DNA of 64,000 nucleotides from Candidatus Pseudothioglobus singularis PS1 (lineage in GTDB: Bacteria; Pseudomonadota; Gammaproteobacteria; PS1; Pseudothioglobaceae). The stretch spans positions 620,001 to 684,000 of the forward strand of contig NZ_CP006911.1 of NCBI RefSeq assembly GCF_001281385.1, written 5' to 3'. The notes beneath the pieces are model-generated. The model made no database searches. It was not told the DNA's origin and saw only the letters and a program-made list of their open reading frames with translations. Position 1 is the stretch's first letter; every line of letters starts with the position of its first letter. Shown in pieces: positions 4,527 through 24,574 of the stretch. The position numbers were made by a program, and so were the translations under genes.

Positions 4527-4545
4527 AATGTCTCCTTATAATTAA

Positions 4546-6511: not shown

Positions 6512-6617
6512 CGAACAAAATACTTTCCTAAAAGGCTTTTAGTTTAATAATTTAGTGGAAGATTATTAAAATTTGATATGTTCACGTGTATATTATGCAA
6601 CTAGAAACTTCTAACAA

Positions 6618-7049: not shown

Positions 7050-7106
7050 TCTCATTTTAAATTAAAGTCTTTTCTTACAAACAACAACTATATTTTTTTT
7101 TGCCTT

Positions 7107-7865: not shown

Positions 7866-7945
7866 CTTTAATATTTTATCTTAGAAAGGTTTTTTTTAGT
7901 CCTATATAATGTTTTAATAAATAAAAAAATAATTTGAGGTGGGTT

Positions 7946-8959
7946 TTGAACGAGATCATAGGCAGATATATCGAAGAATATAAATTTTCTGATATTCATT
8001 TGAAGGAGAATCAGCCTGTCATGTTGCGCGTCAATGGTGAGATGATTACCCCCGAAGAGGATGTTATTTCTTCAGCTCAGCTTAGAGAGTTTGCTCATGA
8101 ATCGCTCACTGAGGATCAGTTAACTCATTTCTCAGAGGTTCGTGATGTGGATCTTGCAATAGAGGTTGGAGATTATCGTTTTCGTGTCAATTTTTTCTAT
8201 ACTTCGGATGGCCTCTCTGCAGTGTTAAGAAAAATTGAAACTAATATTCCTTCAATGGCAGATCTTAATCTTCCTCATGTTATGCAAGAAATTGTTGATA
8301 AACCCAATGGCTTGGTTCTTGTTACAGGGCCAACAGGATCCGGCAAGTCAACCTCTTTGGCCTCAATTATTGATGGAATTAATGCCACAAAGCAGGGTCA
8401 TATTCTTACGATTGAAGATCCCATTGAATATATTCACCATCCGAAGGAGTGCGCTATTTCTCAAAGGGAAGTTGGGAGGGATGCCAAATCTTTTGCGACC
8501 GCCCTTAAGGCATCTCTTCGTGAAGACCCTGATGTCATTCTGGTTGGAGAGCTTAGAGATCTTGAAACAGTTCAGCTTGCTATTACTGCTGCTGAAACTG
8601 GACACCTTGTCTTTGGCACGCTTCATACATCCGGAGCCCCTAATACCATTAACCGTCTTATTGATGTCTTTCCAGCGGCGCAGCAGGGCCAAGTCAGATC
8701 TCAGCTTGCGGAATCCCTAAGACTCGTTGTGACTCAGCAGCTTGTTAAGACTGCAGATGGGCAGGGACGCGTTGCCGCTTTTGAGATTATGGTCTGTAAT
8801 CATGCGGTCAGGAACTTGATACGAGAGGGTAAGATTTTCCAAATAAGTGGCATTATGCAAACTGCAAGAGGTGAAGGCATGGTCACTATGAATCACTCAG
8901 TTGAAGGCCTAGTTGCTTCTGGAAAAATTAACTACGAAGACGTTGAGTTAAGAGATTAA
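7946..8959 (+). CDS. pilT: Type IV pilus retraction ATPase
   Basis: About 337 residues. Two TTG codons can start it. The one at 7946 is preferred because GAGG (7936-7939) lies 6 nt upstream and the protein then begins MNEIIGRYIEEYKFSDIHL, matching PilT starts. A longer frame opens at TTG 7934. Walker A (GPTGSGKST), the Asp box (TIEDPIEYIH), Walker B (DVILVGELRD) and the His box (TAAETGHLVFGTLHT) are all intact. The C-terminal AVRNLIREGKIFQISGIM favours PilT over PilU. It powers pilus retraction and twitching. fimT follows after 3 bp. Confidence 0.93.
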   Translation: MNEIIGRYIEEYKFSDIHLKENQPVMLRVNGEMITPEEDVISSAQLREFAHESLTEDQLTHFSEVRDVDLAIEVGDYRFRVNFFYTSDGLSAVLRKIETNIPSMADLNLPHVMQEIVDKPNGLVLVTGPTGSGKSTSLASIIDGINATKQGHILTIEDPIEYIHHPKECAISQREVGRDAKSFATALKASLREDPDVILVGELRDLETVQLAITAAETGHLVFGTLHTSGAPNTINRLIDVFPAAQQGQVRSQLAESLRLVVTQQLVKTADGQGRVAAFEIMVCNHAVRNLIREGKIFQISGIMQTARGEGMVTMNHSVEGLVASGKINYEDVELRD

Positions 8960-8962
8960 TTA

Positions 8963-9484
8963 GTGAAGCCTGCAATTACACTAATTGAACTATTGGTAGT
9001 GATTGCTTTAGTCGGCATTATCGCAGGCACTGGATGGCCCGCATTGACAGGATGGAATTGCAAACAAGAGCATCGTAATGATTTCGAATCATTAAATCAG
9101 TTATTTGAAAAAGCGCGAGCTGAAGCCTTAAATAGAAGTCAAACAGTTCTTGTGAGAGCGAATCGAAGCTTGCCAGCAAATGGAGCCACTTATACGGCTT
9201 ATCTTCTCACCAATAAAACTTGCACTTTATCAGGCTCAGCGCAATCTTTAGATCCAAATATTCCAAAACTTGTTATCAGCGATAAATCAAGACTTTTAGG
9301 CGTTGCCAACCAATGCTTTAATTCTGATGGAACGGCAACAGCATCTAATTCAATTCAGCTTCATCAAGTCCAAAGGGATTGCGGCAAAGGCAACCAAACA
9401 TTGCAAACACTTATTTTTGGAGCGACAGGTCTCTTTGAAAAGAAAGTAAAGCGTCCTGGCGATTCATCTTTTTCAGATTTGTAG
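8963..9484 (+). CDS. fimT: Minor pseudopilin, FimT/GspH type
   Basis: A 173-residue protein from a GTG start, with a very short leader (MKPA) and mature N-terminus ITLIELLVVIALVGIIAG carrying the conserved Glu5. Residue -1 is Ala rather than the usual Gly. The globular part contains RAEALNRSQTVLVRA, typical of FimT/GspH. It belongs to the pilus-priming minor pilins and may bind DNA, as other FimT proteins do. It sits between pilT (3 bp) and pilV (7 bp). Three Cys in the mature part may form a disulfide. Confidence 0.85.
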   Translation: MKPAITLIELLVVIALVGIIAGTGWPALTGWNCKQEHRNDFESLNQLFEKARAEALNRSQTVLVRANRSLPANGATYTAYLLTNKTCTLSGSAQSLDPNIPKLVISDKSRLLGVANQCFNSDGTATASNSIQLHQVQRDCGKGNQTLQTLIFGATGLFEKKVKRPGDSSFSDL

Positions 9485-9491
9485 GTTAATT

Positions 9492-9953
9492 GTGATGATG
9501 ATAAAAAATAAAAAAGCATTTACCCTTATTGAAGCGCTCGTTTCTGTTGCTATTACTGCAATTGGTTTTGCTGGTGTTTATGCCTTAGTTACTGTATCTA
9601 ATGGAGTTATGAGCGATACTATCGATAAAGAAAAATTAAAGTATCAGAACACTGAAATTATTGAATCATTGAATGCTGACCAAACTAATATTATGGAATA
9701 CAACGGCAAGGATCTGAGCAACTGCTCCTCTATTACGACTGGAACAGGGAAGGATGACCAGCTTAAGCGATTGCAAAACTGGTGCAACAAAATAAAAGGC
9801 GAGGTTGGTGATAAGAGAACTTCAGATAAGCGAATTATTCGAGTTGAAAAAAAACAAGTTGGTCAAAATAATGTCTATATAGTCTCACTTGAGTTAAATG
9901 CGAAGAGTAACAAAAAGTCTGTCTTTATGAAGAGGATCTTCTATGCGCCATAA
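9492..9953 (+). CDS. pilV: Minor pilin PilV-like
   Basis: A 153-residue prepilin. GTG 9492 and ATG codons at 9495 and 9498 can all serve as start, giving a leader such as MIKNKKA before FTLIEALVSVAITAIGFAG. Residue -1 is Ala, and Glu5 is present. The segment TAIGFAGVYALVTVSNG fits PilV. It overlaps pilW by 11 bp, indicating translational coupling. It is expected to form the priming complex with PilW, PilX, FimT and PilY1. Confidence 0.82.
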   Translation: MMMIKNKKAFTLIEALVSVAITAIGFAGVYALVTVSNGVMSDTIDKEKLKYQNTEIIESLNADQTNIMEYNGKDLSNCSSITTGTGKDDQLKRLQNWCNKIKGEVGDKRTSDKRIIRVEKKQVGQNNVYIVSLELNAKSNKKSVFMKRIFYAP

Positions 9954-11442
9954 TATAAAAGCCTTTACTCTTGTTGAAATGCTGGTCGCGCTAGCAGTCA
10001 GTTCGATCATTGTTGCAGCAACTTATGCTTCATTTGAGCTTATTCAGAAGCAATACAAAAAGAATATAGATGTTGCAGAGCTTCATACTTCGGGAAGAGC
10101 AGTAATGAGTATCCTTGAGCGTGAAATTAGAATGGCTGGTTTCGAATATCGAGATGGAAATGGATTAATGACATATGGAACCATTGCTGCACCTCTTGTC
10201 ACAACTGATAGTGGAAATAAATGCTGCGACGAGGTAACAATTATTTATGACGAAGTCTTTGACACGCTTAATGCCTCAGGTGTGGTTACATCGAGCACAG
10301 TTGAGCGAGTCAAAACAAGATTCTGGACAGAGCCTTATACTAGTTCAAAGCATGGAACTAGAAATCGATTATTTAAACGAAGAACGATTCTTGGAACAAA
10401 TAATGCACTCCTTGCAGCACCCAGAGTTGGAGCTAAGGATGTGATGGCTGACTATATTGAAGATTTACAATTTGTTGATATTCTTACGAGTACATTTTTA
10501 GCTTCTGGTTCTGACTATAATGATAATATTGAGTTATTTGATATCTCTACCAAATCAAGAGCTCAGCCTGATGGATGGATTATTGGGACATCTAAGAATG
10601 GAGCTTTAGCTTCTGGGAATGGTGGAAAATTATATTCTGGCTCTGAAATGAAAGAAGGAATAACGATTTATGAGCCATTTAAAAACAAATCAGGACGAAA
10701 GAGTTTTTTTCAAACAGATAAAGCAATTAGTGCTTTGGCCGTAGATTCGAGTGGTTTAATTTATGCTGGGTTTAATAGAGCAACTGGAATAAGAATTTAT
10801 AATCCAGAAACAGGATCAAAGATTGGTGAGATTCCTACAAGTATTAACATTTCTTCAATTGCTATTGGCCCTGATGGAATTTTATACGCAGGAAATAAAA
10901 GCTTTACTACGGTTTATATGTATAGCACATCTAAAGGCACCAAGATTGGAGAGGTTCAATCAGGAAGAGATGTGTATGACAAAATATCTGCAGGGCATAT
11001 TGCATTTTCAAAAAGTAATGGTTATATTTCTGCTAATAATAAATATGTGGTAAAGATCTTCAGAGTAAGTGATTCTGTGATTACTGGTTTTATTTCTGCG
11101 AACCCTGTTCCTGGTCCAATTGCATTTGGTTCAGATGGTTATTTATATGTTGGCACACTAAATAATCCAGGAATTAGGATATTCAATCCAAATACTGGAG
11201 CTTTGGTTGGAAGTATTCCAACAAAAAATCGAACTGATGCCTTAACCTTTATTAGTGAAAGTTCTGGCAGCAAGTGGTTAGTTTCAATTTCTTTATCATT
11301 AAGATCAAAAGGAAAGTATGGAAAAAATAGGAAATTTTCAAAGAAAGACTACCATCCTGGAAATTATATTATTAATAAAAATGATGATTTTTTTAGAGAT
11401 GTTTTTACATCAACTGTTTTAGTTAGAAATATGAAACAATGA
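9943..11442 (+). CDS. pilW: Minor pilin PilW with inserted beta-propeller-like repeats
   Basis: The protein is 499 residues, noticeably longer than the usual PilW. Residues 1-177 are PilW: leader MRHNIKA, FTLVEMLVALAVSSIIVA with Glu5, SILEREIRMAGFEYR, and DYIEDLQF at 170-177. Residues from 445 return to PilW (WLVSISLSLRS, then a closing TVLVRN). In between, about 200-440, lie propeller-like repeats of about 45 residues such as LAVDSSGLIYAGF, IAIGPDGILYAGN and IAFGSDGYLYVGT. The insert's DNA looks more A/T-rich than its neighbours. The gene overlaps pilX by 4 bp. Confidence 0.85.
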   Translation: MRHNIKAFTLVEMLVALAVSSIIVAATYASFELIQKQYKKNIDVAELHTSGRAVMSILEREIRMAGFEYRDGNGLMTYGTIAAPLVTTDSGNKCCDEVTIIYDEVFDTLNASGVVTSSTVERVKTRFWTEPYTSSKHGTRNRLFKRRTILGTNNALLAAPRVGAKDVMADYIEDLQFVDILTSTFLASGSDYNDNIELFDISTKSRAQPDGWIIGTSKNGALASGNGGKLYSGSEMKEGITIYEPFKNKSGRKSFFQTDKAISALAVDSSGLIYAGFNRATGIRIYNPETGSKIGEIPTSINISSIAIGPDGILYAGNKSFTTVYMYSTSKGTKIGEVQSGRDVYDKISAGHIAFSKSNGYISANNKYVVKIFRVSDSVITGFISANPVPGPIAFGSDGYLYVGTLNNPGIRIFNPNTGALVGSIPTKNRTDALTFISESSGSKWLVSISLSLRSKGKYGKNRKFSKKDYHPGNYIINKNDDFFRDVFTSTVLVRNMKQ

Positions 11443-11987
11443 ATAAATATATGAAAAAAAAACGTCATGGCTTCATTATTGTTGTCTCATTAACTTTAAT
11501 GCTGGTCATGATGACTATGGGGATTGGTCTTTATTACTCAACAAAACAATCCTCTGAGATGGTTGGCAAAAGTATTACCAAATCAGACTCCTTTTACTCT
11601 GCAGAGAGCTGCATTGCAGAGGCTAGGATTTGGTTAAAGACGCAATCAGCATCCGGTGCACCCTGTAAAAATACTGCCTCTGGCTCTTTATGTCATTCAG
11701 TGTCGAGCGCCAGGATGAGTAAATGGCAACTCAACTCTGAAAACCAGATTCTAAAAAATAGAGCTCAAAATCAGAAATATGAATGTACTATTGCTTTATT
11801 AGGTCAGGTTGCCTATGAGGGCGGTGAAGGTGTTGGGTTTGATGTTGGCGAGGGGAGCGGATATGGGGCTGCTGCAACTAATACCAAGTATATGTATAGA
11901 ATTAGATCTCAAGGTAGTTTAAACTCTGCGTCAGGGGTGGATAGTTTTTTGAGTCAGGTCGAAGTGATTGATTCAATGATTTTTTAA
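11439..11987 (+). CDS. pilX: Minor pilin PilX-like
   Basis: A 182-residue prepilin. The ATG at 11439 overlaps the pilW stop; an in-frame ATG at 11451 gives the shorter leader MKKKRHG. The mature N-terminus FIIVVSLTLMLVMMTMG lacks Glu5, as in other PilX proteins, and is followed by the PilX-type stretch SDSFYSAESCIAEARIWL. The other Cys (in APCKN, SLCHS and YECTI) offer disulfides. It is part of the minor-pilin operon feeding the PilY1 tip complex. Confidence 0.85.
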   Translation: MNKYMKKKRHGFIIVVSLTLMLVMMTMGIGLYYSTKQSSEMVGKSITKSDSFYSAESCIAEARIWLKTQSASGAPCKNTASGSLCHSVSSARMSKWQLNSENQILKNRAQNQKYECTIALLGQVAYEGGEGVGFDVGEGSGYGAAATNTKYMYRIRSQGSLNSASGVDSFLSQVEVIDSMIF

Positions 11988-12000
11988 ATAGAAATTAAAT

Positions 12001-12534
12001 ATGTCAAAAAACAAGATACTCATTTTTACTTTATTATTGCAGCTTCTATTTGTCGGAAGTGTTCAGGCTAAGTGTGATTTCAAATCTTTCAAGTTTGGTG
12101 ACTCATACAAATCAACAGTAAGCAAATTAAAAATTGATTCTGAATTTGTGGAGCCCGAAATAAAAGGCGCCTCTCAGCAGTTTTTATTTGCTCCTGGAGA
12201 AGAGGTTTGTAAGAGTGAAAAAGCATTTCAAGGTGTCCCTATACATTTTGTCTTTTTATATAATAAGCTCGTTCAAATTGAGCTTATGAGGGTATCAGAA
12301 TCTCCTTCCCTTATAACTTGGGCTGAGTCCATTTATGGCGTTAAAGAAAACAAACCTAACAGCTTTTATGATGAATTTCCAATTGCCAGGTGGTCTTGGG
12401 AAAATTCTAAAGCAGTCATAGCCTACTCAGTTGAAAGCGTTGCCAGTGATGTAGTTGAGTCAGTGATTATTCAATCTCTTAATCACCAGCAGAGTTATGA
12501 AAAATTTGCAATCGAGCAAGAGGGCGGCAACTAA
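12001..12534 (+). CDS. Secreted protein of the pilus operon, unknown
   Basis: A 177-residue protein with a signal peptide (ILIFTLLLQLLFVGSVQAK). It lies 13 bp after pilX and its stop directly abuts the pilY1 ATG. The mature part starts CDFKSFKFGDSYKSTVSKLK and contains SIYGVKENKPNSFYDEFPIARWSW, with paired Cys that could form one disulfide. It lacks a prepilin leader, so it is periplasmic or surface-exposed rather than a pilin. I do not recognise a family. Its position between pilX and pilY1 implies a role in tip assembly or PilY1 export; that is inferred. Confidence 0.7.
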   Translation: MSKNKILIFTLLLQLLFVGSVQAKCDFKSFKFGDSYKSTVSKLKIDSEFVEPEIKGASQQFLFAPGEEVCKSEKAFQGVPIHFVFLYNKLVQIELMRVSESPSLITWAESIYGVKENKPNSFYDEFPIARWSWENSKAVIAYSVESVASDVVESVIIQSLNHQQSYEKFAIEQEGGN

Positions 12535-15500
12535 ATGAGAAAACTTCAGGCACTAGTTGGTTCTCTGTTATTGATATGCGCCTTTGGTATAGATGCAAAG
12601 TCACCACCTCCTGGAACTGGAAAGGCCGATGTTCCAGCTAATATATACATCATGCTTGATACATCCGGATCTATGGGCGCAACTGTTAATTCTGTTGGTA
12701 GAATGTACTACCCAAGAGATGTAGCAGTTGACTCCAATGGAAATATTTATGTAGTTGAATACTATTATCACCGAATTAAAAAATATGACTCTGCTGGAAA
12801 CTTTGTTAAGTCATTTGGTAGCTACGGAAGTGGCGCTGGACGTTTCTACTATCCAACAAAAATGGATATAGACTCAAATGATAATCTTTATATAGCGGAT
12901 CGAAACGGCGTCTCAAAATATGATTCTAATGGCAGCTATATAACAAGTTATTCTGGTGCTTCAAATATCATCGATGTAGCTGTAGACGATTCAACTGGTG
13001 ATGTTTATGGCGTAACTTCAAGGTCGGTTTATAAATGGAGAGGGAGTGGCGGTTCTTATATCACATCTGGCTCTGGATACTTTAACGGCTTAGACTTTTA
13101 TAATGGCTCTCTATATACGGCCGGAAGGGGCACTCAAAATATTACGAAATATTCAAGTGCACTTGGAGTTCAAAATACCTGGTCTCTTTCAAGTAATACT
13201 AGTGCTGGAGACGTTGAGGTTACCTCGAATGGAATCTATGTAGCCTGCACAGGGTACTGCTCTAAAATTCAAAAATACTCACTCAGTGGTGTTTATGAAA
13301 GGCAGTTTGGTAGTTTTTCGTCATCTAGCCCAAGTGGATTTTATTATCTTTATGGTATTGCTTCAGATAGTTCCGGGAATATATATGGAGCTAGTTTTTA
13401 TAGACATGCAATTAAAAAATTTGATTCTGATGGAACATACTTAAGCACTGCAGGCCCATCTAGTGAAACGCGAATGTCAGAGGTTTTAAAGGTTATTGAA
13501 AAGCTGACCTCAAGCTCAGATCTAACACGAGGTGCAAATTTTGGATTACAGGATTGGGCTAGCTCTGCCACTCAAAGAATAAAAATAAGTTCTAATGGTG
13601 CTGCAGAAATTAATAAGAGTGTTTCCCCACAAATTACGAAAAATGGAGTACTGATCACCAATCCAGATTACAAGGGCTCGTCATGGTATCGCCCAAGTGG
13701 TGGAACGAATTTGGACAGTGCTATGTCTGAAGCGCAGTCATACTTTACCGGGAGCAACTCGCCAATAGATTCTAACGCAGGTTGTCAAAAAAACTTTTTA
13801 ATTGTTATCAGTGATGGCCAATGGTTTGGAAGCCGAGCAGAGAATATTGCTAAAAGCCTTCTAGCGACCAAGGGGATTCAGACCTTGGTTGTTGGCTTTC
13901 ACTCAGGGGGAAATCAAACTAATTATATAAAGTTAGCTAAAGCTGGCGGCACTCACCCTGACTCCCCTTTATTTTCAAATAACTGGCAGCAGCTATATGA
14001 GACGATGTCTGCCTTTATTCGCCAGGCTATTTCCTCTCGTCTTACTTTTTCTGCGCCTGTAGTAATGCCTAATATCAGTAGTGGTGATCATATCTTCCAG
14101 TCAACCTTTACTTTTAAAAGTAATCACCAATGGGAGGGTCAGCTTTCAAAATATAAGCTTACATCAAATAATGCAGGTTCATTTAAAGCTGGCGTTGGCG
14201 CAATTCAGTGGGATGCTGGTGCAGTACTCGATGCAAGGAGTGAGTCTTCAAGAAATATTTGGACTGTTGCTAACCCTTTTGGAGTTTCCACATCACTCAA
14301 TAACTTTACAGCCTCCAATGTGGTTAACTTAAAGCGAGCACTCTGGGAGAACAGTGGAACAAATCCAACAGATGCCCAAGCTACAAAATTAATAAATTTT
14401 GTTCGTGGTGTCGACTCTTATGATGAGAACAAAGACAATAGCACCACTGACAAGCGTTGGAAGCTTGGAGATATATTTAACTCCAGGTTGGTCGTAGTTG
14501 GCCCTCCTAAGGGTAAGACCACCTCTAGTGCATCAAAAGACCATACTGAGGCATACTATCGTCATATAAATGGCTACAAGGCCTTTAAAACTGGAGCAAG
14601 CTGTGGGGTAAATTGCGCAGTCCGTGACGAAGTGGTTTATGTTGGCGCTAATGACGGAATGCTCCACGCCTTTGATTCTAGTTCTGGTAAAGAATTGTGG
14701 GCCTTTATTCCACCAATGATGCTTCCATCTTTAAAATCAATGATTTCAGTAAAGGCAAATAGCTCTAATGCCATTTATGGTGTTGATGGCTCGCCAATTG
14801 TTAAGGATATTTTTTATAATAATAAGTGGCGAACTGTTTTAATTTCTGGAATGGGTAGGGGAGGTTTTGGATATTTTGCTTTAGATGTGACCAATTCAGC
14901 TAGCCCATCATTTCTATTCGCTTTTGAAAATAAGCCAAGCTTGAATCTGGTTTCGCATTGGGATGCAAATGGAACCAGGACCGACTTGGGTTACGCCAGT
15001 AATATTCCTGCTGAATTTGATTACTCAAAAATAGGCGAGACCTTATCCACTCCAGTGATCGTGGCATTACCAGTTGGAACTGGAAATAATCGTAAGTGGG
15101 TCGCTGTTTTTGGCGGCGGCTATAATTCGGGTATCAATACGAACTTCGGTTCTAGTGTTTATGTTGTTGATTTAGAGGACGCTGGTAAAGTAGTAAAGAG
15201 ATTTGATCTTAATGATCTTGCAGGGGATCCTGCTAACTCTATGCCGTCATCTCTGGTATCAATTACTCCAGATACAACGAGCAAAGCAAAATACAAGGGA
15301 GCGCTGGTTTATGGCGCAGATCTTGAGAGTAAGTTATGGCAACTAAATCTGACTGATCAAGGCACTCTTTATGACTTTACTGCTCACTTTGACGCAGAAG
15401 CAACAACGGATAATGATCGATTGTCTTTTTTCCAAATTACACCTTCCATAGGAAGTGATGACAACTTATGGACTTTCTATGGAACTGGAAATCAGCAGAG

Positions 15501-16038
15501 ACTGCAAAGAATGTCTAATGATATCGATAACAGGATCTTTGGCATAAAAGATAAAAATTTTCCAACCTATACGAACATTTCAGGCGCTACGCCAAAAGCC
15601 TCCTCGATGAAAAATATGTCTACTGCAGGTTCTTCATGTCCTGTTAGTTCAGATCTAGGTTGGTATATTAATATGGGCTCTAATGAGAGAATTACCGGTA
15701 AACTTGCCGTTTTTAACGAAGTTGTATACGCCTCTCGTTATCTCCCTAATCAGGGACAAATTTGCTCTCCAGGTAAGGCTTATTTGTCTGAACATAACAT
15801 GACATGTGGAAGTGAATCCCGCAAAACAGAGTTAGGCGAGGGAATTGCAACGGGCGCAGTTATTCACAAAAATATAGTTTATATTGGTATTAGTGGTGGC
15901 GGATCTGGAGAGATTAAGGATAGTAAAGGCAATGTAATAGGTAAGAAAGAGGATAATATAATTCTTCTGTCGCCATCAGGTAGCGGGGTAATAGGGGATG
16001 GAAAAATTTCACAAGAGTCATGGCGTGAAATTTATTAA
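12535..16038 (+). CDS. pilY1: PilY1 pilus-tip adhesin with NHL propeller inside the VWA domain
   Basis: A 1167-residue secreted protein (signal peptide 1-22). The VWA domain begins at NIYIMLDTSGSMG, with metal-site DxSxS at residues 42-46. It is interrupted at about 50-310 by NHL-like repeats (YYPRDVAVDSNGNIYVVEYY, FYYPTKMDIDSNDNLYIADR, YYLYGIASDSSGNIYGASFY). It then resumes at RMSEVLKVIEKL and carries the remaining metal-site residues in GGTNLDSAM and VISDGQW. The C-terminal half is the PilY1 propeller (VVYVGANDGMLHAFDSSSG, VDGSPIVKDIF, ISGMGRGGFGYFALDV). PilY1 caps and primes the pilus and binds surfaces or metals. The usual Ca-loop before the late LVYGADLESKLWQL strand is not recognisable. 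Confidence 0.92.
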   Translation: MRKLQALVGSLLLICAFGIDAKSPPPGTGKADVPANIYIMLDTSGSMGATVNSVGRMYYPRDVAVDSNGNIYVVEYYYHRIKKYDSAGNFVKSFGSYGSGAGRFYYPTKMDIDSNDNLYIADRNGVSKYDSNGSYITSYSGASNIIDVAVDDSTGDVYGVTSRSVYKWRGSGGSYITSGSGYFNGLDFYNGSLYTAGRGTQNITKYSSALGVQNTWSLSSNTSAGDVEVTSNGIYVACTGYCSKIQKYSLSGVYERQFGSFSSSSPSGFYYLYGIASDSSGNIYGASFYRHAIKKFDSDGTYLSTAGPSSETRMSEVLKVIEKLTSSSDLTRGANFGLQDWASSATQRIKISSNGAAEINKSVSPQITKNGVLITNPDYKGSSWYRPSGGTNLDSAMSEAQSYFTGSNSPIDSNAGCQKNFLIVISDGQWFGSRAENIAKSLLATKGIQTLVVGFHSGGNQTNYIKLAKAGGTHPDSPLFSNNWQQLYETMSAFIRQAISSRLTFSAPVVMPNISSGDHIFQSTFTFKSNHQWEGQLSKYKLTSNNAGSFKAGVGAIQWDAGAVLDARSESSRNIWTVANPFGVSTSLNNFTASNVVNLKRALWENSGTNPTDAQATKLINFVRGVDSYDENKDNSTTDKRWKLGDIFNSRLVVVGPPKGKTTSSASKDHTEAYYRHINGYKAFKTGASCGVNCAVRDEVVYVGANDGMLHAFDSSSGKELWAFIPPMMLPSLKSMISVKANSSNAIYGVDGSPIVKDIFYNNKWRTVLISGMGRGGFGYFALDVTNSASPSFLFAFENKPSLNLVSHWDANGTRTDLGYASNIPAEFDYSKIGETLSTPVIVALPVGTGNNRKWVAVFGGGYNSGINTNFGSSVYVVDLEDAGKVVKRFDLNDLAGDPANSMPSSLVSITPDTTSKAKYKGALVYGADLESKLWQLNLTDQGTLYDFTAHFDAEATTDNDRLSFFQITPSIGSDDNLWTFYGTGNQQRLQRMSNDIDNRIFGIKDKNFPTYTNISGATPKASSMKNMSTAGSSCPVSSDLGWYINMGSNERITGKLAVFNEVVYASRYLPNQGQICSPGKAYLSEHNMTCGSESRKTELGEGIATGAVIHKNIVYIGISGGGSGEIKDSKGNVIGKKEDNIILLSPSGSGVIGDGKISQESWREIY

Positions 16039-16116
16039 TTTTTTAACATTCAAGATGCTCTATAAATTCAGCCTTTATAGATCATCCTGATATATATACT
16101 TTAAAAGTAATTTCTA

Positions 16117-16122
16117 TATAAT
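16117..16122 (+). promoter_or_regulatory. Possible -10 box close to the pilM-pilN start
   Basis: TATAAT lies only 6 nt before the ATG at 16129, the spacing expected of a leaderless transcript. No good -35 is visible 17 bp upstream. The 90-bp pilY1-pilM gap is the largest within the plus-strand pilus block, so an internal promoter here is plausible. Confidence 0.35.
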
Positions 16123-16128
16123 ATCACT

Positions 16129-17781
16129 ATGCTAAAGAAAGTTCTTAAAGGGGTTGTTGGTTACCTCAGTAAACTTACCGTTGAACAGGAAGATGTTGTT
16201 GGCGTTGATATTACGCCCAACTGTATTAGGGTCTCTCAGCTATCATCAAGCAAAAAAAAGTGGACACTAACCAAACTCGGTTATAAATATATCGATGGAA
16301 GTTCGAACTACTCTCTGATCGAAAGTCCTGAGAACTATGTTAACAAACTTGCTCAGCTGATTACTGCCTCAAAAATTAAAACGAAAAGTGCCGCTGTCTC
16401 TATACCAGTTAGTAGTGCAATCATTAAAGTAGTGCAGCTCCCTCTGATGACAGATGAGGAGCTTAAAGTTGCTGTAGCTTCTGATTCGCTATGGGAAAAC
16501 ACGGTTCAGTTGGCTGATAATCTTGAAGACTACTCTATTTTTTGGCAGGTCTTAAAAAGGGATACCGCTGAAAACTTAATGCATATCTTGTTTGTTGCAT
16601 CAAAATTAGATGACATTGATAACTATCTCGATATTGTTAGGCAGGCAGGTTTGAATCCAGTTGTGGTTGATGTTCGATGCTTTGCAACTCGAAATGCACT
16701 AGCCCTTCGTGAAGACTTAACTAAATCCGATGCCCCTGTAGCTATTGTTGAGTTTGGCGCTTTTGAAAATTATATTTTGATCCTTTACAAGGACTCACCA
16801 TTTATATCTGATATTTATTTGTCAGAAAAAGATCGTAATACGCTCATGGATCAGGGCTCGACTGATGAGCAAATTAAGGGAATTAGCAATCGTTTTTCTA
16901 TGCAGGTTTCACAGATGATTTCATCTTATACTGCCAAATATAAAACGCAGGCGATTAATAACTTGTTGATTTCATCATCTTTGCCGAATCTTGAAAGAAC
17001 CATTGGTAATTTTAATGAAGCCCTACCTAATATCGAAGTCGAAGTTTTCGATTCACTGATGAATGTTGAAGTGCCTGAAAATTTGAAGGAGAAATCTACT
17101 GCTGAGCTCAATAGTTCAATTTTCTCATCGTCATTAGGATTAGCTACGAGAAAGTTAGATGTGTTTGGTTACTACGAGTATGTCACTGGAACTAATAATA
17201 TTAACTTACTTCCAAACAGGGAGAGTGTTAAGAGTCAAGAGAAGATGAAGTTTGTGTCACGATGGGGAGTTGTGATATTTTCAATTTTAGCGATTGGTTT
17301 GGGTGCCTGGAATTTTCTCTCTAGCGGTAAAGAGGTCGATAGGGTCGATGAGCTCATGGTTGAGTACAACATGCTCGAACCAGTTAGAGACGAAAAGCAA
17401 ACGATACTTTCTGATCTTATTGCAAAAAAAGATTCCTTGGAAACCTCGCTGGAAGCAACAAATGACTTGACCTCGAACCAGGGCTTTATGTACTCAGTCC
17501 TTCTGGGCATTAATTCTGCAATTCCAGGGCAATCCTTAAAGCTAGTCAAGGTAGACTACAAAGGAGATAGTGAAATTCAAATTGAAGGCATGTCAACAAA
17601 TGATGGCAATATTCTTACCTTTATTGAAAATTTGACGGTAATTGATGTTATAGATAAAGCCTCATTGGGAACAATGTCTGTAAAAACAATTTCAAATCAA
17701 ACAGTAAAAACTTTTGTTGTCAAAGTTATTCTAGCTCCGCAACAATCCATAGATTCCAGGGAGTCAAACGATGGCAGTTGA
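16129..17781 (+). CDS. pilM-pilN: PilM-PilN fusion protein
   Basis: One 550-residue frame. Residues 1-345 are PilM, an actin-like ATPase (VVGVDITPNCIRVSQL near 24-39, AAVSIPVSSAIIKVVQLPLM, VAIVEFGAFENYIL). The PilN part starts with its hallmark INLLPNRES at residues 358-366, then a membrane segment (WGVVIFSILAIGLGAWNFL), a coiled coil and a periplasmic ferredoxin-like domain (LKLVKVDYKGDSEIQIEGMS). In known systems the N-terminal INLLP peptide of PilN binds PilM; here the partners are covalently joined. The gene overlaps pilO by 11 bp. MSHA-type MshI proteins are a possible parallel. Confidence 0.9.
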   Translation: MLKKVLKGVVGYLSKLTVEQEDVVGVDITPNCIRVSQLSSSKKKWTLTKLGYKYIDGSSNYSLIESPENYVNKLAQLITASKIKTKSAAVSIPVSSAIIKVVQLPLMTDEELKVAVASDSLWENTVQLADNLEDYSIFWQVLKRDTAENLMHILFVASKLDDIDNYLDIVRQAGLNPVVVDVRCFATRNALALREDLTKSDAPVAIVEFGAFENYILILYKDSPFISDIYLSEKDRNTLMDQGSTDEQIKGISNRFSMQVSQMISSYTAKYKTQAINNLLISSSLPNLERTIGNFNEALPNIEVEVFDSLMNVEVPENLKEKSTAELNSSIFSSSLGLATRKLDVFGYYEYVTGTNNINLLPNRESVKSQEKMKFVSRWGVVIFSILAIGLGAWNFLSSGKEVDRVDELMVEYNMLEPVRDEKQTILSDLIAKKDSLETSLEATNDLTSNQGFMYSVLLGINSAIPGQSLKLVKVDYKGDSEIQIEGMSTNDGNILTFIENLTVIDVIDKASLGTMSVKTISNQTVKTFVVKVILAPQQSIDSRESNDGS

Positions 17782-18553
17782 TATGAATGTTGATGTAGGC
17801 CAACTCATTAAAGGCCTTTTTTCAAAAAAAGAAAAGGCAGAAGGTGGCGCCAAAAACCCTCCAAACCCTCACGCGAAGACTGCAATAGGGGTTGTTGGGG
17901 TTATAGTTATTATTGCTGCTTATATTTATTTTATATATCTACCAACACAAGCAGATTTAAAAGTTAAAAATGAGAAAATTTCTCAAATTGAGATGCTTAA
18001 ATATGAGATAGAAGACCTTACAACGAACATTGTGGAAGCCGAAAAAGTATTAGCGGTTGCTCAAAAAGAATACGAAAGAAGAACAACTCTCTTTCATACA
18101 GATAAAGAGCTAGAAGATTTGTACGGTCAAATTAGTTTACTGGCTATGCAAAATAAGTTAATGATAACAAAAATTCAAAAAGGCATTGAAAGGCCAGTTT
18201 TTACTGGTGAGTCTTGTTCAAATGGGATGACTGATGAAAATGAATTTGAAGAAGATGAGCAGTTTTCAGATGATGAAATGTCAGTAGAACTTCAAAAAGT
18301 TGGGTATTATGAATTTGTAGTGAACCTTGAGTTAAGCGGAAACTATAACCAGTTTACAAGGTTTAGAAGTGGTTTAGCTGAACTTAAAAAGATTATTAAC
18401 ATTAATAACGAGACAATCACAGTCCCAGAGAGTGGCTCTGGTGGAGATGTCAAGGTAAGAAGTTCAATTGCTACGTATCGATTGCCAAAAAATGAGTCTG
18501 AAGAATGTTCAGATCCAGATCAGGAGTTAGGAGAGGAAGAATATGACAGTTAA
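17771..18553 (+). CDS. pilO: Type IV pilus alignment protein PilO
   Basis: A 260-residue bitopic inner-membrane protein: cytoplasmic N-terminus, one membrane helix (IGVVGVIVIIAAYIYFIYLP, about 38-57), a coiled coil (KVKNEKISQIEMLKYEIEDL) and a C-terminal periplasmic domain ending YEFVVNLELSGNYNQFTRFRS. It contains an acidic insertion (ENEFEEDEQFSDDEMS). It overlaps pilM-pilN by 11 bp and pilP by 11 bp. With PilN and PilP it links the motor platform to the secretin. Confidence 0.9.
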   Translation: MAVDMNVDVGQLIKGLFSKKEKAEGGAKNPPNPHAKTAIGVVGVIVIIAAYIYFIYLPTQADLKVKNEKISQIEMLKYEIEDLTTNIVEAEKVLAVAQKEYERRTTLFHTDKELEDLYGQISLLAMQNKLMITKIQKGIERPVFTGESCSNGMTDENEFEEDEQFSDDEMSVELQKVGYYEFVVNLELSGNYNQFTRFRSGLAELKKIININNETITVPESGSGGDVKVRSSIATYRLPKNESEECSDPDQELGEEEYDS

Positions 18554-18959
18554 ATTTTCAAGGATCTTTATATTTATAATTATTCCTATTTTATTTTCTA
18601 GTAGTTCAATTGCTGCAGATAATGCGTTTGGGTCTCTTATTTCAACTAATACTGGCTCCGCAGCATCTGATTTTGTTCCTTCTTCAATAGAGGCAGTCGA
18701 TAAAACTCTTCATCCTTTGGTTCGAAGACCTGTTGATTCGAATACAATAATTGGTGTTATGATTTCACCTGCTCAAAAAATTGCTTATATAAGAACTTAT
18801 GATGGTGAAGAATATTTTATTGGAGTTGGAGATATGCTGGGGAATGCTGATGGATCTGTAACAAATATCAATTCTTTTGGCATTGAAGTTACTCAGGCAG
18901 ATGACGTTATATCATTACCTGTTAGAAATAGGAGTGTAGCAAATGAAAATGAAGAATAA
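18543..18959 (+). CDS. pilP: Type IV pilus assembly protein PilP
   Basis: A 138-residue exported protein with signal MTVKFSRIFIFIIIPILFSS and a mature HR-type domain. The segment LHPLVRRPVDSNTIIGVMIS leads into YIRTYDGEEYFIGVGDMLGN, the PilP beta-sandwich that contacts the N0 domain of PilQ. PilP is normally a lipoprotein, but no Cys is present at the cleavage region here. The gene overlaps pilQ by 17 bp. Assignment rests on position and fold pattern. Confidence 0.82.
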   Translation: MTVKFSRIFIFIIIPILFSSSSIAADNAFGSLISTNTGSAASDFVPSSIEAVDKTLHPLVRRPVDSNTIIGVMISPAQKIAYIRTYDGEEYFIGVGDMLGNADGSVTNINSFGIEVTQADDVISLPVRNRSVANENEE

Positions 18960-20502
18960 TTTTCTCTTAGCACTTCTTGTTGTTTTTATATCCTCGTGTG
19001 AGCCAAATGAGTATCGATCTCCATTTCCAGTCGAGTTGCAAGAGAGTAATACAGAGTTATTGGAAGTTAGTAAAAGCTCTTTAATTATTGAGCCTGAAAG
19101 CTTTATTGCAGATAATCAAGACCGCGTTATTGCAACAGCTTTAAGTGGACCCATAATTGATGTAGAGTCCTCTGAAGCTGAGATTGCAAAAAGCACTATT
19201 AGAAAACAAATCAACAAAGAGGAAGTTAAAAATAACATAGACGTGAGCTCTGGCTCTAATAAAGAAGAAATCTTTCCAATTTCAGTAAATTTTGAAAATA
19301 TGCCGATCGAATATATGTCGGTCATGTTTGCTGAGGTCTCAGGAAGAAATATTATGATTGGAGATGAGGTTTCTGGTCTTGTATCCGCTAAGCTGACTGA
19401 TGTTCCATGGGATAAAGCGCTTGACTCAATTCTTAAGGTTAAGCAGTTAGCAAAGTACGTCGATGAAGAAGCCAATATTATTCGCATACATAGCCAAGAA
19501 GTGCTTGCAGCTCAGGAAAAATATGATCTTGAGATTATGCAAGCTATGGAAAAGACACGCAATGCTCAGGACGCTGTGCAGCCTCTTTATACTGAAATTT
19601 TTAAGTTGTATTACACTGAAGCTAAAAATGTTAGTACAGAAATTCAAAGCATTATTAATGGGCCAGAATCGGGTGAAGGTGAAGAAGTTTCTTCTGCTAT
19701 AGAAATTACAATAGATGAAAGGCTGAATTATTTAATTGTAAAAGCGACTGAATCTGATCTTAATTTTATTCAGCGTATTATTTCTGAACTAGACGTTAGG
19801 ACCAAACAAATATTAATTGAGGCTTTCATTGTTGAAGCTTCTGAAAGTCTTGGTCGCTCTCTTGGAGCAGATTTTGCAATAAATTCCCCGGATACTAATA
19901 TCTTGGGATTTCGTGATAACTTTAGGGGTGATAATGCTCTAGGCATAACAGGTTCGACCTTAGGTGCACCAGCTGCCGGTACCAGTGCTATTTCATTTAT
20001 CCTTGGCACTACTACCAAGAACTTATCTGCAGCGCTAGCTGCCTCTGAAGATGAAGGAATTACTAAAGTATTATCAAATCCAAGAGTGTTTACTCTGGAT
20101 GGTCAGGCAGCTGAAATTAAGCAAGTTGATCAAGTTCCTTATACTAAAGTGGAAGACGGAGTCACTTCAATTGAGCTAAAAGATGCAGGAATTACATTAA
20201 AGGTAACCCCTGTTATAGTGGGTGATGGAAATATCATTCTTAGCGTAGATGTTGAAAAGTCAACCGTAGATACCACTATAGCTAACCCACCGATTGCAAA
20301 AAGGACGATTTCAACCAAGCTATTAATCAAAGATGAGACCATTGTGGTCATTGGTGGTGTCTTTACTGAGTCTACTAAATCCTCTAAAACTCAAACGCCA
20401 TTCCTTGCTGACCTTCCATTGGTTGGAGATCTATTTAAAGGTGAAGAGAAGACGAATGTTCGAAAAGAGCTCTTAGTTTTCTTGGCGCCTCGTATCATTT
20501 AA
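18943..20502 (+). CDS. pilQ: Type IV pilus secretin PilQ (short, lipoprotein-like)
   Basis: A 519-residue secretin, shorter than most PilQ because no AMIN domains are visible. The N-terminus ends in a lipobox (VVFISSC, Cys19). N0 is at about 105-180 (FPISVNFENMPIEYMSVMFA, VPWDKALDSILKVKQLA), an N1/KH domain follows (IDERLNYLIVKATESDLNFI), then the secretin barrel (VLSNPRVFTLDGQAAEIKQV, GITLKVTPVI, LADLPLVGDLF, LLVFLAPRI). It forms the outer-membrane gate for the pilus. The lipoprotein signal recalls MshL-type secretins, but PilT, PilX and PilY1 in the locus argue for a type IVa system. Confidence 0.9.
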   Translation: MKMKNNFLLALLVVFISSCEPNEYRSPFPVELQESNTELLEVSKSSLIIEPESFIADNQDRVIATALSGPIIDVESSEAEIAKSTIRKQINKEEVKNNIDVSSGSNKEEIFPISVNFENMPIEYMSVMFAEVSGRNIMIGDEVSGLVSAKLTDVPWDKALDSILKVKQLAKYVDEEANIIRIHSQEVLAAQEKYDLEIMQAMEKTRNAQDAVQPLYTEIFKLYYTEAKNVSTEIQSIINGPESGEGEEVSSAIEITIDERLNYLIVKATESDLNFIQRIISELDVRTKQILIEAFIVEASESLGRSLGADFAINSPDTNILGFRDNFRGDNALGITGSTLGAPAAGTSAISFILGTTTKNLSAALAASEDEGITKVLSNPRVFTLDGQAAEIKQVDQVPYTKVEDGVTSIELKDAGITLKVTPVIVGDGNIILSVDVEKSTVDTTIANPPIAKRTISTKLLIKDETIVVIGGVFTESTKSSKTQTPFLADLPLVGDLFKGEEKTNVRKELLVFLAPRII

Positions 20503-20514
20503 TTAAAAAAGTTT

Positions 20515-22362
20515 ATGGCAAGTTTAGGAGTTCCACCAGAGTCAGCTGAACAAATTGCAAGTTTGTTACATAGTAACGGTCTAATCAGTGAAGTTGACTT
20601 AAAGAGTGCTATGGTTTCAAGTGATGAGGGAGATAAGTGCCTTATCGAAACCCTTATTGACTATAGGTTTACAGATGAGAAATCAATAGCTTCAGCGATT
20701 TCAGGCAGCTATGATATAGAATTTTTACCTGAACTCAGTGCAGACAATATTGACTTCACTTCATCTGATATTCTGTCAAAAAAATACATTGCTGAAAACA
20801 GAATTATCCCAATCAGTGTTCACGGCCATACTCTCGATGTTGCGATTTCAGAGCCTTCAGCTCTAAATCAAATGCAAAGCATTGCTTTGTTAACTGATAA
20901 GAAAGTAAATCCATACCTAGTTACAATCAGTCAAATTAGTGAAATTTTAGATAGCTTTAATTCTATTGATCCGTCTTCAGCTTCAGCGCCAAGAACACCT
21001 AAAATTAATACAAAATCTAACTCTTCTGCTAAAGCTAATGGAAGAGCGAATGCTTTAGATGCAAAAATAAAGACTGAAACAAAAATTGATCCTGCAATTG
21101 CTAAAAAAGCGAGGCAAGATAAATTAAATCAAGAAAAGGCTAAAGCTGAGGTTACTAAAGATGACGAAGATGGTGAGCAGTATTCTGCAGTTGTCGTTCA
21201 GTTTATTGATACAAATCTTAAAAAAGCAATTAGAGAGGGTGTGAGTGATATCCACTTTGAAGTCTTTAAGCACTCTGCTAGGATGAGGTTTAGACTGGAT
21301 GGTGTTTTGATGGAGGAGCCTGGCACTAACAAAGTGCTATTTGAAAACTATTCAAAGATTATTACGCGTATCAAGATTATGTCAAGGCTTGACATTGCTG
21401 AGAGAAGAAAGGCTCAAGATGGCGCAATCACTCTTAAGGTGGATGACAAAGAAGTCGACTTTCGAGTCTCCTGCATGCCAACAAGCTTTGGAGAAAGGGT
21501 TGTAATGCGTATTCTTGATACGGATGGTATAGATTTATCAATTGAAAAACTTGGCTTTCATGAGGATGATGAAAAAGCCTTTATTGACTCAATTACCTCG
21601 CCTCAAGGTATGGTTCTGGTAACCGGTCCAACTGGATCGGGTAAGTCAACAACGCTTTACGCTGCTCTAAATAAAATTAACAAAGAAGATATTAATATCT
21701 TAACTGCTGAAGATCCGGTCGAATTTACCCTTGATGGCGTTGGACAGGTTCATGTTAAGCCAGACCATGGAATGACTTTTGCTTCGGCGCTAAGGTCATT
21801 TTTAAGACAGGACCCTGAAGTGGTGATGGTTGGTGAGATTCGTGATCAAGAGACAGTTGAAATTGCTATCAAAGCTGCATTAACAGGCCATTTAGTGCTT
21901 TCTACCCTCCACACGAATGATGCTGTGAGCACGATTACTCGTATTCTAAATATGGGCGTCCAGCCCTATTTAATTACATCCGCCTTAACTTTGATTATTG
22001 CTCAGCGTCTAGCCAGAAAAAATTGTAATGACTGTCTGGTTGAGGATGAGAGCGTTAACGAGAGTCAACTCAGATCTGTTGGTTTTTCAGCTGAAGAAGC
22101 TACAAGGGTTTCAGTATTCAAAGGTACTGGGTGTGATATTTGTAACGGAACTGGCTACAAAGGTCGAAAAGGTGTCTATGAAGTCCTAAGGATTTCAGAT
22201 AATTTAATTGAAGGTATTCTGCAAGAAAAAACGACTCCTGAGCTTAAAAAAATAGCACTAGAAAAAGATAACTTCCTGAACATGCAAGAGATTGGCAGAA
22301 CTTTTCTGAAAGATGGATCAATCTCTATTGAAGAATATAAGCGAATTTTAATTTTAGATTAA
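20515..22362 (+). CDS. pilB: Type IV pilus extension ATPase
   Basis: A 615-residue ATPase. The N-terminal T2SSE_N-like region (about 5-150; IASLLHSNGLISEVDLKSAM) is followed by a charged Ala/Lys linker (about 160-220), then the motor domain with Walker A GPTGSGKST, Asp box TAEDPVEFTLDG, Walker B EVVMVGEIRD and His box ALTGHLVLSTLHTNDA. The zinc-type tetracysteine is present (CNDC and CDIC). It drives pilin polymerisation at the PilC platform. It sits 12 bp after pilQ and 13 bp before pilC. Confidence 0.95.
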   Translation: MASLGVPPESAEQIASLLHSNGLISEVDLKSAMVSSDEGDKCLIETLIDYRFTDEKSIASAISGSYDIEFLPELSADNIDFTSSDILSKKYIAENRIIPISVHGHTLDVAISEPSALNQMQSIALLTDKKVNPYLVTISQISEILDSFNSIDPSSASAPRTPKINTKSNSSAKANGRANALDAKIKTETKIDPAIAKKARQDKLNQEKAKAEVTKDDEDGEQYSAVVVQFIDTNLKKAIREGVSDIHFEVFKHSARMRFRLDGVLMEEPGTNKVLFENYSKIITRIKIMSRLDIAERRKAQDGAITLKVDDKEVDFRVSCMPTSFGERVVMRILDTDGIDLSIEKLGFHEDDEKAFIDSITSPQGMVLVTGPTGSGKSTTLYAALNKINKEDINILTAEDPVEFTLDGVGQVHVKPDHGMTFASALRSFLRQDPEVVMVGEIRDQETVEIAIKAALTGHLVLSTLHTNDAVSTITRILNMGVQPYLITSALTLIIAQRLARKNCNDCLVEDESVNESQLRSVGFSAEEATRVSVFKGTGCDICNGTGYKGRKGVYEVLRISDNLIEGILQEKTTPELKKIALEKDNFLNMQEIGRTFLKDGSISIEEYKRILILD

Positions 22363-22375
22363 ACATAGGGTTTTA

Positions 22376-23626
22376 ATGGCCGTCACATACGCATATAAAG
22401 GCATTCTGGCAAATAAGTATACCGAAGGTAAGGTTATTGCTATTAATAAGGATGAGGCTGCTTTTAAACTCAAAGAAGATAAAATTATTATTACTTCCTT
22501 GGAAAAAGTGTCTGGAAAGGAAGAAGTTATTAAGGCAAAAAAGGAAGTCAAAGAATCTAAGAAAAAAACAAAGATCCCCAAAAAAGTCCCAATCGAAGAG
22601 GTCATCACCTTTACTAAAAAATTTGAGACAATGGTTAGGGCTGGCTTACCTATTCTTGAGACTATAAAAATGATTGAGAATCAAACTGAGCACAAAGGTT
22701 TTAAATTAATTGTTGCTGATATTCACCAGTCTGTTGAGACTGGTAATACACTATCAGACTCATTTGAAAAGTTTCCAGGGGCCTTTGATAATATTTATAT
22801 TAATCTTCTTAGGGCTGGAGAATCGAGTGGAAAGGTACAATTATTCTTATCCAAATTAGTGATTAATATGGAGAAGCAAGAAAAGATTAAAAAAAGCATT
22901 AAAGGAGCCATGACCTATCCAACAATACTCTTGATTGTTGCGGGTGCTGTTGTAACATTGATGCTCGTTTTTGTGGTTCCAGTTTTTGAAGAGATGTTTG
23001 CTGGAAAGGCAGGTGGACTTCCAGCAGCGACGCAGTTTGTGGTTAATGCGAGCAATTTTCTTAGAGATCCTCTTAAGGGCGGTGTCGTTGCATTTTTATT
23101 AGTTGCTTCGTTTATGGGATTGTCTTTCGCCATCCGAAAAAACTATAAGGTCAAAACTGCCTGGCACAAACTTGTACTTAAGCTCCCTCTCTTTGGTGGT
23201 TTAGTTAGTATGTCATCACTGTCAAAGATTGCGATGATTCAAGGAAACCTCAGGGCAGCAGGTGTTCCCGAAATGGAGGCATTAGATATTGCTGCTAGTG
23301 CAAGCAATAACGTTATTATAAAAGAGGCAATGGTTGAAGTCAGAAGAGGTGTATTTTCTGGTGAACCATTATCTAAATTATTCGAAAAAACGCCCGCTAT
23401 ATTTCCTCCCTCATTTGTTGCTCTGGTCTCTGTTGGAGAGAGGACCGGTAATATGGAAGAGATGTATGGATCTATTGCAAGCTATTACGAGAGTGAAATG
23501 GATGTTGTGATTGAGAAGCTAACGGCGATGCTTGAGCCAATAATGATGGTTTTTATGGGCGTTACTGTTGGCGGTATACTGGTTGCAATGTACACGCCAA
23601 TGTTTGCTATGGGAGATACTTTCTAG
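22376..23626 (+). CDS. pilC: Type IV pilus inner-membrane platform protein
   Basis: A 416-residue polytopic protein with two tandem T2SSF domains. The first has FTKKFETMVRAGLPILETIK and the second LSKIAMIQGNLRAAGVPEME. Three membrane helices are visible (TILLIVAGAVVTLMLVFVVP, GVVAFLLVASFMGLSFAI, and C-terminal PIMMVFMGVTVGGILVAMY). The Lys-rich linker (residues 55-75) follows a small N-terminal domain. It is the last plus-strand gene of the pilus block, convergent with the pilins. Confidence 0.95.
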   Translation: MAVTYAYKGILANKYTEGKVIAINKDEAAFKLKEDKIIITSLEKVSGKEEVIKAKKEVKESKKKTKIPKKVPIEEVITFTKKFETMVRAGLPILETIKMIENQTEHKGFKLIVADIHQSVETGNTLSDSFEKFPGAFDNIYINLLRAGESSGKVQLFLSKLVINMEKQEKIKKSIKGAMTYPTILLIVAGAVVTLMLVFVVPVFEEMFAGKAGGLPAATQFVVNASNFLRDPLKGGVVAFLLVASFMGLSFAIRKNYKVKTAWHKLVLKLPLFGGLVSMSSLSKIAMIQGNLRAAGVPEMEALDIAASASNNVIIKEAMVEVRRGVFSGEPLSKLFEKTPAIFPPSFVALVSVGERTGNMEEMYGSIASYYESEMDVVIEKLTAMLEPIMMVFMGVTVGGILVAMYTPMFAMGDTF

Positions 23627-23661: not shown

Positions 23662-24102
23662 CTAAGGGCACTGACCAGCACTTCTTAGATCATTACTCTG
23701 AGTAAGACAATACTTAGTTACACCCTTTCCAGACTTAGGTGTTGCAACTGCTTGAAAGCCAGAGGCATGAGAAACTGTCCTGTAGTCGTAGTCACCTGAT
23801 GTATCTAAAGTGCTTTTACCAAACAGATTCGTATTAATTGAGTTAGTGTTACTGGCTAAATAATAGCTATTATTGTCCGAGAAATAGCTGGACTGCATCA
23901 TTGCAATAGACCTAAGATTATTCTTTGCTGTCTCCTCTTTCGAGTCTGTGATATAGCCATTATAAGCGGGAATACCAACGCCTGCTAAGATCCCAATGAT
24001 GGCAACAACTATTAAGAGCTCAATAAGTGTAAAACCCGCGATAAAGCGGGTTTTAATATTTTCTCTAAAAATGATAATCTTACTCTTTTGTAATATAATC
24101 AT
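23662..24102 (-). CDS. Type IV pilin (second of two), PilA/PilE-like
   Basis: The mature pilin begins at FTLIELLIVVAIIGILAGVG, with Gly at -1 and Glu5, giving about 123 mature residues. It ends with the D-region disulfide pattern YCLTQSND...GQC. The start is uncertain. The nearest ATG (24102) lies inside the upstream pilin gene and gives a 23-residue leader. An ATT at 24057-24055 after an AGAGAA would give a normal leader (KTRFIAG after the initiator). A perfect 9-bp hairpin (24031-24054) spans this leader region. It may be a major pilin, a translationally controlled one, or a copy that has lost its start. Confidence 0.75.
   Translation of the reverse strand: MIILQKSKIIIFRENIKTRFIAGFTLIELLIVVAIIGILAGVGIPAYNGYITDSKEETAKNNLRSIAMMQSSYFSDNNSYYLASNTNSINTNLFGKSTLDTSGDYDYRTVSHASGFQAVATPKSGKGVTKYCLTQSNDLRSAGQCP
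24031..24054 (-). terminator. Terminator-like hairpin inside the second pilin's leader
   Basis: AAAACCCGC (24031-24039) and GCGGGTTTT (24046-24054) form a perfect 9-bp stem with a 6-nt loop. On the minus strand the stem ends in four T. It lies 26 nt beyond the stop of the first pilin, so it may terminate most transcripts there, yet it also encodes the second pilin's signal residues just before FTLIE. Confidence 0.6.
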
Positions 24103-24574
24103 AGCCAGAAGATGGAGAGTAGGCATTTCCACCAGATTCATTGCCAATATTAGTTCTTAAAACAATGCGATTACCAGAATAACTAATCATAGTTCCACCT
24201 AATATAGGACTTGAAGTAGTTGTAGTAACGTACGATCCACCATATGGGTTCTTGTTAATAGAGTTAAAGTATGTTCTGAAATAACTAGCCCACGTGTTCG
24301 CATTTTGATTGCAATATCGGTTACTACTTCCCAGCGTAACATATTGAGAACCTGTAGAGCATTTAGTAAGCGTTGCTGCTACAAAAGATTTTACGTTTTT
24401 GTGGTTTGTTGTGGCACTTTGCACTTTGGCAGTAGCCATATAGCCGTTATACATTGGAACACCAACTCCGGCTAGAATTCCAATAATTGCTACAACAATC
24501 AAAAGCTCAATTAAAGTAAAAGCTTTCTTTTTCATTTCGACAACTTTTGTTTTGATCATTTTTATAGGTTTCAT
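24080..24574 (-). CDS. pilA: Type IV pilin (first of two), PilA-like
   Basis: A 164-residue prepilin. ATG 24574 has an AAGGA ribosome site 5 nt upstream and gives an 18-residue leader. An inner ATG (24535) would give MKKKA. The mature N-terminus is FTLIELLIVVAIIGILAGVG with Glu5, and residue -1 is Ala. The globular part has a central Cys pair (TKCSTG and RYCNQN) but no C-terminal disulfide loop, unlike the second pilin. Either it or its neighbour is the major subunit. Confidence 0.85.
   Translation of the reverse strand: MKPIKMIKTKVVEMKKKAFTLIELLIVVAIIGILAGVGVPMYNGYMATAKVQSATTNHKNVKSFVAATLTKCSTGSQYVTLGSSNRYCNQNANTWASYFRTYFNSINKNPYGGSYVTTTTSSPILGGTMISYSGNRIVLRTNIGNESGGNAYSPSSGYDYITKE

Follow-up and report, generated by a model that had tools for sequence, protein, structure and literature searches.

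A predicted six-bladed NHL propeller inserted in the VWA domain of PilY1 in a marine bacterial clade

The PilY1 protein encoded in a type IVa pilus locus of Candidatus Pseudothioglobus singularis PS1 is predicted to hold a closed six-bladed NHL propeller within its VWA domain, immediately after the first metal-binding motif. The locus lies in the window, by which we mean the whole stretch of 64,000 nucleotides that was analysed. Starting from a domain layout, a fold, a site and a conservation pattern that were computed, we infer a tip position, ligand binding and closeness to the MIDAS, and we put at roughly 60% the probability that the protein is a tip adhesin in which the propeller serves as a ligand-binding arm next to an intact MIDAS, one that evolves fast, is exchangeable and tunes specificity.

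The gene is part of the minor-pilin operon of a type IVa pilus (T4aP), with FimT, PilV, PilW and PilX encoded upstream and PilM-Q, PilB and PilC downstream:

7107-7865, minus strand: pilD, prepilin peptidase (PF06750/PF01478)
7934-8959, plus strand: pilT, retraction ATPase (PF00437)
8963..9484, plus strand: fimT/gspH-like minor pilin (PF12019)
9492..9953, plus strand: pilV-like minor pilin (family searches)
9943..11442, plus strand: pilW-like minor pilin, 499 aa (N_methyl, E 1.8e-7), with a propeller-like insert
11439..11987, plus strand: pilX-like minor pilin (weak PilX_N match; operon position)
12001..12534, plus strand: 177-aa secreted-looking protein between pilX and pilY1, with no Pfam or NCBIfam match
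16129..23626, plus strand: assembly genes pilM(N), pilO, pilP, pilQ, pilB and pilC, named partly by their order
23662..24574, minus strand: two prepilins, probably the major pilins (N_methyl; PF16732 in one)

Judged by its gene content, the segment 7107-24574 is a complete type IVa pilus locus, and a retractable one given pilT. The order PilT-FimT-PilV-PilW-PilX-177-aa protein-PilY1 is common to the window and SAR11, homologues of the 177-aa protein occupying the same slot in SAR11 loci. One of the two adjoining prepilins matches the ComP DNA-receptor family (PF16732), although the genome is without ComEC.

PilY1 itself is organized as follows:

12535..16038, plus strand: pilY1, an ORF of 1167 aa with a signal peptide, a VWA domain with inserted propeller and a C-terminal PilY1 propeller
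12637..12675, plus strand: VWA strand 1 and MIDAS motif ANIYIMLDTSGSM, residues 35-47 (the strand is model residues 16-23)
12676..13467, plus strand: inserted domain, residues 48-311, 264 aa, with limits set by the insert-less relative L221
12712-13452, plus strand: propeller core in the insert, residues 60-306, predicted as six blades of four strands
13468..13989, plus strand: rest of the VWA domain, residues 312-485 (Pfam VWA and secondary structure order in the model)
13705-13707 and 13813-13815, plus strand: MIDAS residues T391 and D427, both after the insert
14464..15351, plus strand: PilY1 C-terminal beta-propeller (PF05567), residues 644-939 (Pfam and PDB 3hx6)

The identity of the C-terminal domain is supported by a PF05567 match over its curated cut-off (residues 644-939, E 2.3e-20, Pfam) and by PDB entry 3hx6 (PilY1), which matches at E 1.6e-23 in a phmmer search against the PDB. 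For the insert, Pfam reports NHL at E 4.3e-13 (49 bits against a cut-off of 20; best stretch residues 58-84), and by phmmer the NHL domain of Drosophila Thin matches in four stretches at E 5.2e-31, far beyond chance, while Pfam matches VWA only C-terminal of the insert (residues 385-483, profile 73-164, E 8.7e-6). The genome has no NHL match outside PilY1, and a derivation of the propeller from another NHL gene of the same genome was therefore ruled out.

An AlphaFold model of residues 20-660, computed from 33 aligned sequences (mean pLDDT 78.8, pTM 0.61; the alignment is shallow over the insert), has VWA strand 1 at residues 35-42 and then exactly 24 strands in six groups of four at residues 60-306. 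VWA helix 1 (313-326) comes next, and the remaining strands and helices of the domain keep their usual order. With VIA-align, model residues 34-277 superpose on the TRIM71 NHL domain (8j72) at 1.5 A over 241 residues (Z 33.7) and other six-bladed NHL domains reach Z 28-33, with which Foldseek is concordant; the match list from the structure library is filled by propellers, and the lack of VWA entries there carries no weight. The five MIDAS residues flank the insert, D42, S44 and S46 before it and T391 and D427 after it. None of the 29 relatives departs from this set except at S44, which is kept in 28 and replaced by T in the other. The model confirms the prediction of a closed six-bladed NHL propeller looped out of a VWA domain whose core is complete on both sides of the insert and which keeps all five MIDAS residues, the binding of metal being a prediction.

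These results bear out most of the first-pass annotation, which had described DTSGSMG at residues 42-48 of this ORF, then about 260 residues of NHL-like repeats splitting the VWA domain between its first strand and first helix with every metal-site motif kept, and had called for a structure prediction to see whether a six-bladed propeller loops out from an otherwise complete VWA domain, as it does in the model. Motif and ORF are both correct, the repeats correspond to the 264-aa insert matched by NHL and Thin, the split follows from the order in the model, and the coordinates 12690-13465 proved right to within a few codons of the limits given by relatives. In the established topology of VWA domains, the loop after strand 1 sits at the MIDAS face and contributes the first metal ligands. 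Inserted in this loop, the propeller should therefore share the MIDAS face and lie close to the metal.

When genome contigs were scanned, a full-length relative at 43% identity came up in an alphaproteobacterium (UBA6187), along with a series of Pelagibacteraceae relatives. Of 197 Pelagibacteraceae (SAR11) genomes sampled, 41 have PilY1 homologues, the best matching over its full length (43%, E 1.5e-234). An insert of 263-404 residues directly follows DxSxSM in 28 of the 29 aligned proteins, and Pfam detects NHL in 16 of them. By hhalign the inserts are homologous across the three main groups (probabilities of 99.8% for A-B, 98.0% for A-C and 99.8% for B-C), and a fourth small group, the L216 pair, is tied to them more weakly by its insert profile (68-93%). 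No further propeller-bearing PilY1 was present among the matches listed for 369 gammaproteobacterial genomes, searched with the whole protein, or in 398 Pseudomonadota genomes, searched with residues 1-500. Nine loci elsewhere in the phylum, with large ORFs and NHL-like or VWA matches, were considered and rejected, none of them combining DxSxS, NHL and PilY1 motifs. A family-profile search of viral contigs found no relatives, and PHROGs gave no match. As far as these comparisons go, the NHL propeller appears to be the normal filling within one marine clade made up of SAR11, UBA6187 and this genome. Some SAR11 contigs have two adjoining pilY1-like genes with propeller-type inserts (L102:6465-10646 and 15186-17579; L166:3-4190 and 4238-8962; L216:5928-10361 and 10426-14811).

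In a tree of the C-terminal part, made by a quick method and unrooted, the window, UBA6187 and SAR11 proteins share one long, fully supported branch with some betaproteobacterial PilY1s. The PilY1s of Polynucleobacter and other betaproteobacteria (L097:5630-9124, L098:5981-9283, L100:5804-9118) are related and have a different N-terminal module without VWA. Closer to home, PilY1 and PilM of the window had no match in any of the 28 other genomes of the genus, ten of which are at least 90% complete, and the pilus locus therefore seems to be a species- or strain-level possession; together with the gene order common to SAR11, this suggests that it was horizontally transferred.

One member of the SAR11 family provides a natural insert-less PilY1 (L221:2533-5142, 870 aa). 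It reads LDVSGSMRGSRLKTMQNAVNRI and has the same domain order with an uninterrupted VWA domain, its residues 36-203 covering profile positions 1-163. In the relatives with a propeller, by contrast, the VWA match starts at profile position 12-17 and lies after the insert. In the same quick, unrooted tree it groups with the propeller-bearing L205 at 95% support, which suggests secondary loss of the insert. Its VWA domain is, however, more divergent (25% vs 39-46%), and exchange of the complete N-terminal module is therefore just as possible.

Conservation is lowest in the insert, whichever group is considered, with a mean identity of 28-38% vs 46-63% for the domains that follow it in three separate groups, and the strand leading into it (residues 35-47) averages 79-85% in each relative group. 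Net charge ranges among inserts from -18 to +18, that of the window being about +1, and cysteines number from 0 to 8. Fast divergence with an invariant MIDAS is in keeping with a specificity module on which ligands, phages or grazers exert changing selection, and escape from phages or grazers fits as well. The latter possibility could be taken further, such that the propeller would be a variable shield or decoy with no dedicated ligand, its turnover driven by tip-recognising phages and grazers. The divergence in all three groups, the spread of charge and cysteines, and the loss or replacement of the propeller in L221 would all be accommodated, but the closed NHL fold is retained without a break in homology between the main groups, the adjacent MIDAS is invariant, as expected if this face is used, and the diversification could be explained by ligand choice alone; we regard such a shield as unlikely.

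In M. xanthus, PilY1 and minor pilins assemble into a complex that primes the pilus (PMC7541494), and this complex is also located at the pilus tip (PMC8833165). Taken together with the intact MIDAS and the presence of pilT, this makes a two-site tip adhesin the most likely reading. The pilY1 product would be the tip adhesin of a complete, retractable type IVa pilus, in which a six-bladed NHL propeller takes the place of the loop directly after DxSxS of the VWA domain. That domain remains whole around the propeller with its MIDAS intact, and the C-terminal PilY1 propeller would dock on the minor pilins in the usual way. The extra propeller would be a ligand-binding arm held beside the MIDAS, the two adjacent sites reading surfaces or partners, and this module would evolve quickly and be exchanged or lost, tuning specificity, with the VWA core and the docking propeller kept. 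A bolder version, which we hold to be doubtful, treats propeller and MIDAS as one composite binding head, an analogue of the integrin head arrived at by the reverse insertion and mounted on a retractable pilus, which SAR11-type plankton would use for a selective attachment not yet seen in them.

The VWA domain of P. aeruginosa PilY1 is a force-sensing element (PMC8806160), and with the insert sitting inside the VWA domain of a protein encoded alongside pilT, the propeller might be imagined as a mechanical spacer that adjusts how the VWA domain responds to force when the pilus retracts, and not as a binding module. A rigid propeller with adjacent termini would add little length, however, and the same place in ordinary PilY1s is filled by unrelated sequence, which leaves this improbable in our judgement.

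We consider it highly improbable that the propeller binds nucleic acid in the manner of TRIM/Brat NHL domains, as part of a pilus for DNA uptake. RNA-binding NHL domains are indeed the closest solved folds, and the locus includes the ComP-like pilin mentioned above, but PF16732 fits ordinary pilins as well, and the window insert is close to neutral in net charge. ComEC (PF03772) is absent from the complete genome and present in 10 of 14 control genomes, which disfavours a role in DNA uptake; ComEA is unconvincing, being represented by a sub-cut-off HHH_3 match that contains a stop.

Ordinary PilY1s also carry sequence at this place. In 19 proteins, a variable stretch of 154-436 residues (median 198) extends from DxSGSM to the helix NFANWYxYYR; YFNP...YxPW-type motifs recur in these inserts ahead of 'NFANWYTYYR', inspection revealed no NHL-like repeats in them, and they can be aligned to the propeller only with gaps. 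Since ordinary PilY1s thus hold long, unrelated stretches at the same point, the position is an insertion hotspot of the family, of which the NHL propeller would be one new filling. The caveat, raised at the outset, that the repeats could belong to a normal PilY1 N-terminus is hence half right: the position after DxSGSM is a normal hotspot, but the NHL filling is not normal outside the marine clade. That an ordinary N-terminal insert was misread as NHL repeats has next to no chance of being true and is already refuted, for although a long insert occupies this point in all the ordinary gammaproteobacterial PilY1s that were inspected, those inserts have their own motifs, and the NHL statistics and the model are unambiguous (Thin E 5.2e-31; Z 33.7).

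A further propeller, not noticed in the first-pass annotation, seems to be present in the minor pilin PilW, encoded three genes upstream of pilY1, which starts as a normal prepilin and ends with the pilin-like FTSTVLVRN, with WD40-type propeller profiles matching at about residues 216-450 (about 10588-11292; E 1e-6). In a low-confidence model (pLDDT 56), the top Foldseek match of this insert is the YVTN propeller 1l0q (E 1.8e-10), and the propeller appears to lie within the C-terminal sheet of the pilin. SAR11 PilWs have 240-340 aa and are without a propeller-like insert, vs 499 aa in the window, and neither 274 gammaproteobacterial genomes nor the SAR11 loci yielded another PilW with an insert of this kind. 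Being WD40/YVTN-like rather than NHL, the predicted PilW propeller was probably acquired separately from that of PilY1. The first-pass annotation had proposed a second binding module on the pilus tip, noting that NHL propellers often bind sugars, RNA or proteins; an extra putative binding module is present, but the count was too low, as the PilY1 C-terminal propeller and the PilW propeller come on top of it.

The choice of what a type IV pilus touches lies with PilY1, and sticking is not, to our knowledge, a behaviour attributed to free-living streamlined plankton. Here, an adhesion domain has gained a whole second putative binding fold at its most sensitive place, by the metal, in part of the SAR11 genomes and in one cultured bacterium of the SUP05 clade. 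The extra propeller probably helps to decide what the pilus sticks to. In Pelagibacteraceae, surface adhesion had not been observed as of PMC12636525, and a conserved, fast-evolving putative tip adhesin offers a concrete gene for asking about attachment in plankton, with a second, separately acquired propeller (PilW) at the same locus and the insert-less L221 as a ready comparison. PMC8179133 counted 68 architectures of the modular PilC/PilY1 proteins in 2021, and PMC13190605 describes VWA and DUF4114 N-termini; our literature searches on PilY1 with NHL repeat, NHL with VWA and pilus, and SAR11 with PilY1 found nothing, and the NHL variant could be among those 68.

Compared with known systems, the protein resembles PilY1 of Pseudomonas aeruginosa and Legionella in its signal peptide, its VWA domain with MIDAS, its PF05567 propeller and its minor-pilin operon, but DxSGSM is followed here by an NHL propeller and there by the usual unrelated insert, and the window group stands apart from them on a long, supported tree branch. 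The NHL domains of TRIM71/Lin41, Thin, Brat and PknD have the same six-bladed fold (Z 28-34); the likeness is one of fold only, since their partner domains are different and none is inserted in a VWA domain. The integrin head has its I domain within a seven-bladed propeller. There too, a propeller adjoins a MIDAS domain by insertion, although this is an analogy only and the arrangement is the reverse of that in the window PilY1, where the propeller sits in the VWA domain. A pilin VWA domain with MIDAS is a proven adhesin whose protruding arms flank the metal site (PMC8179133). In the VWA adhesins Streptococcus sanguinis PilB and S. pneumoniae RrgA, modules are inserted in a pilus VWA domain beside that site; their arms are small, whereas the window PilY1 would carry a whole six-bladed propeller. 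Set against the modular pilins of PMC8179133, PilW of the window is likewise a minor pilin with a grafted module, in this case a predicted propeller, but the module follows the pilin sheet in those proteins and apparently lies inside the C-terminal sheet in PilW.
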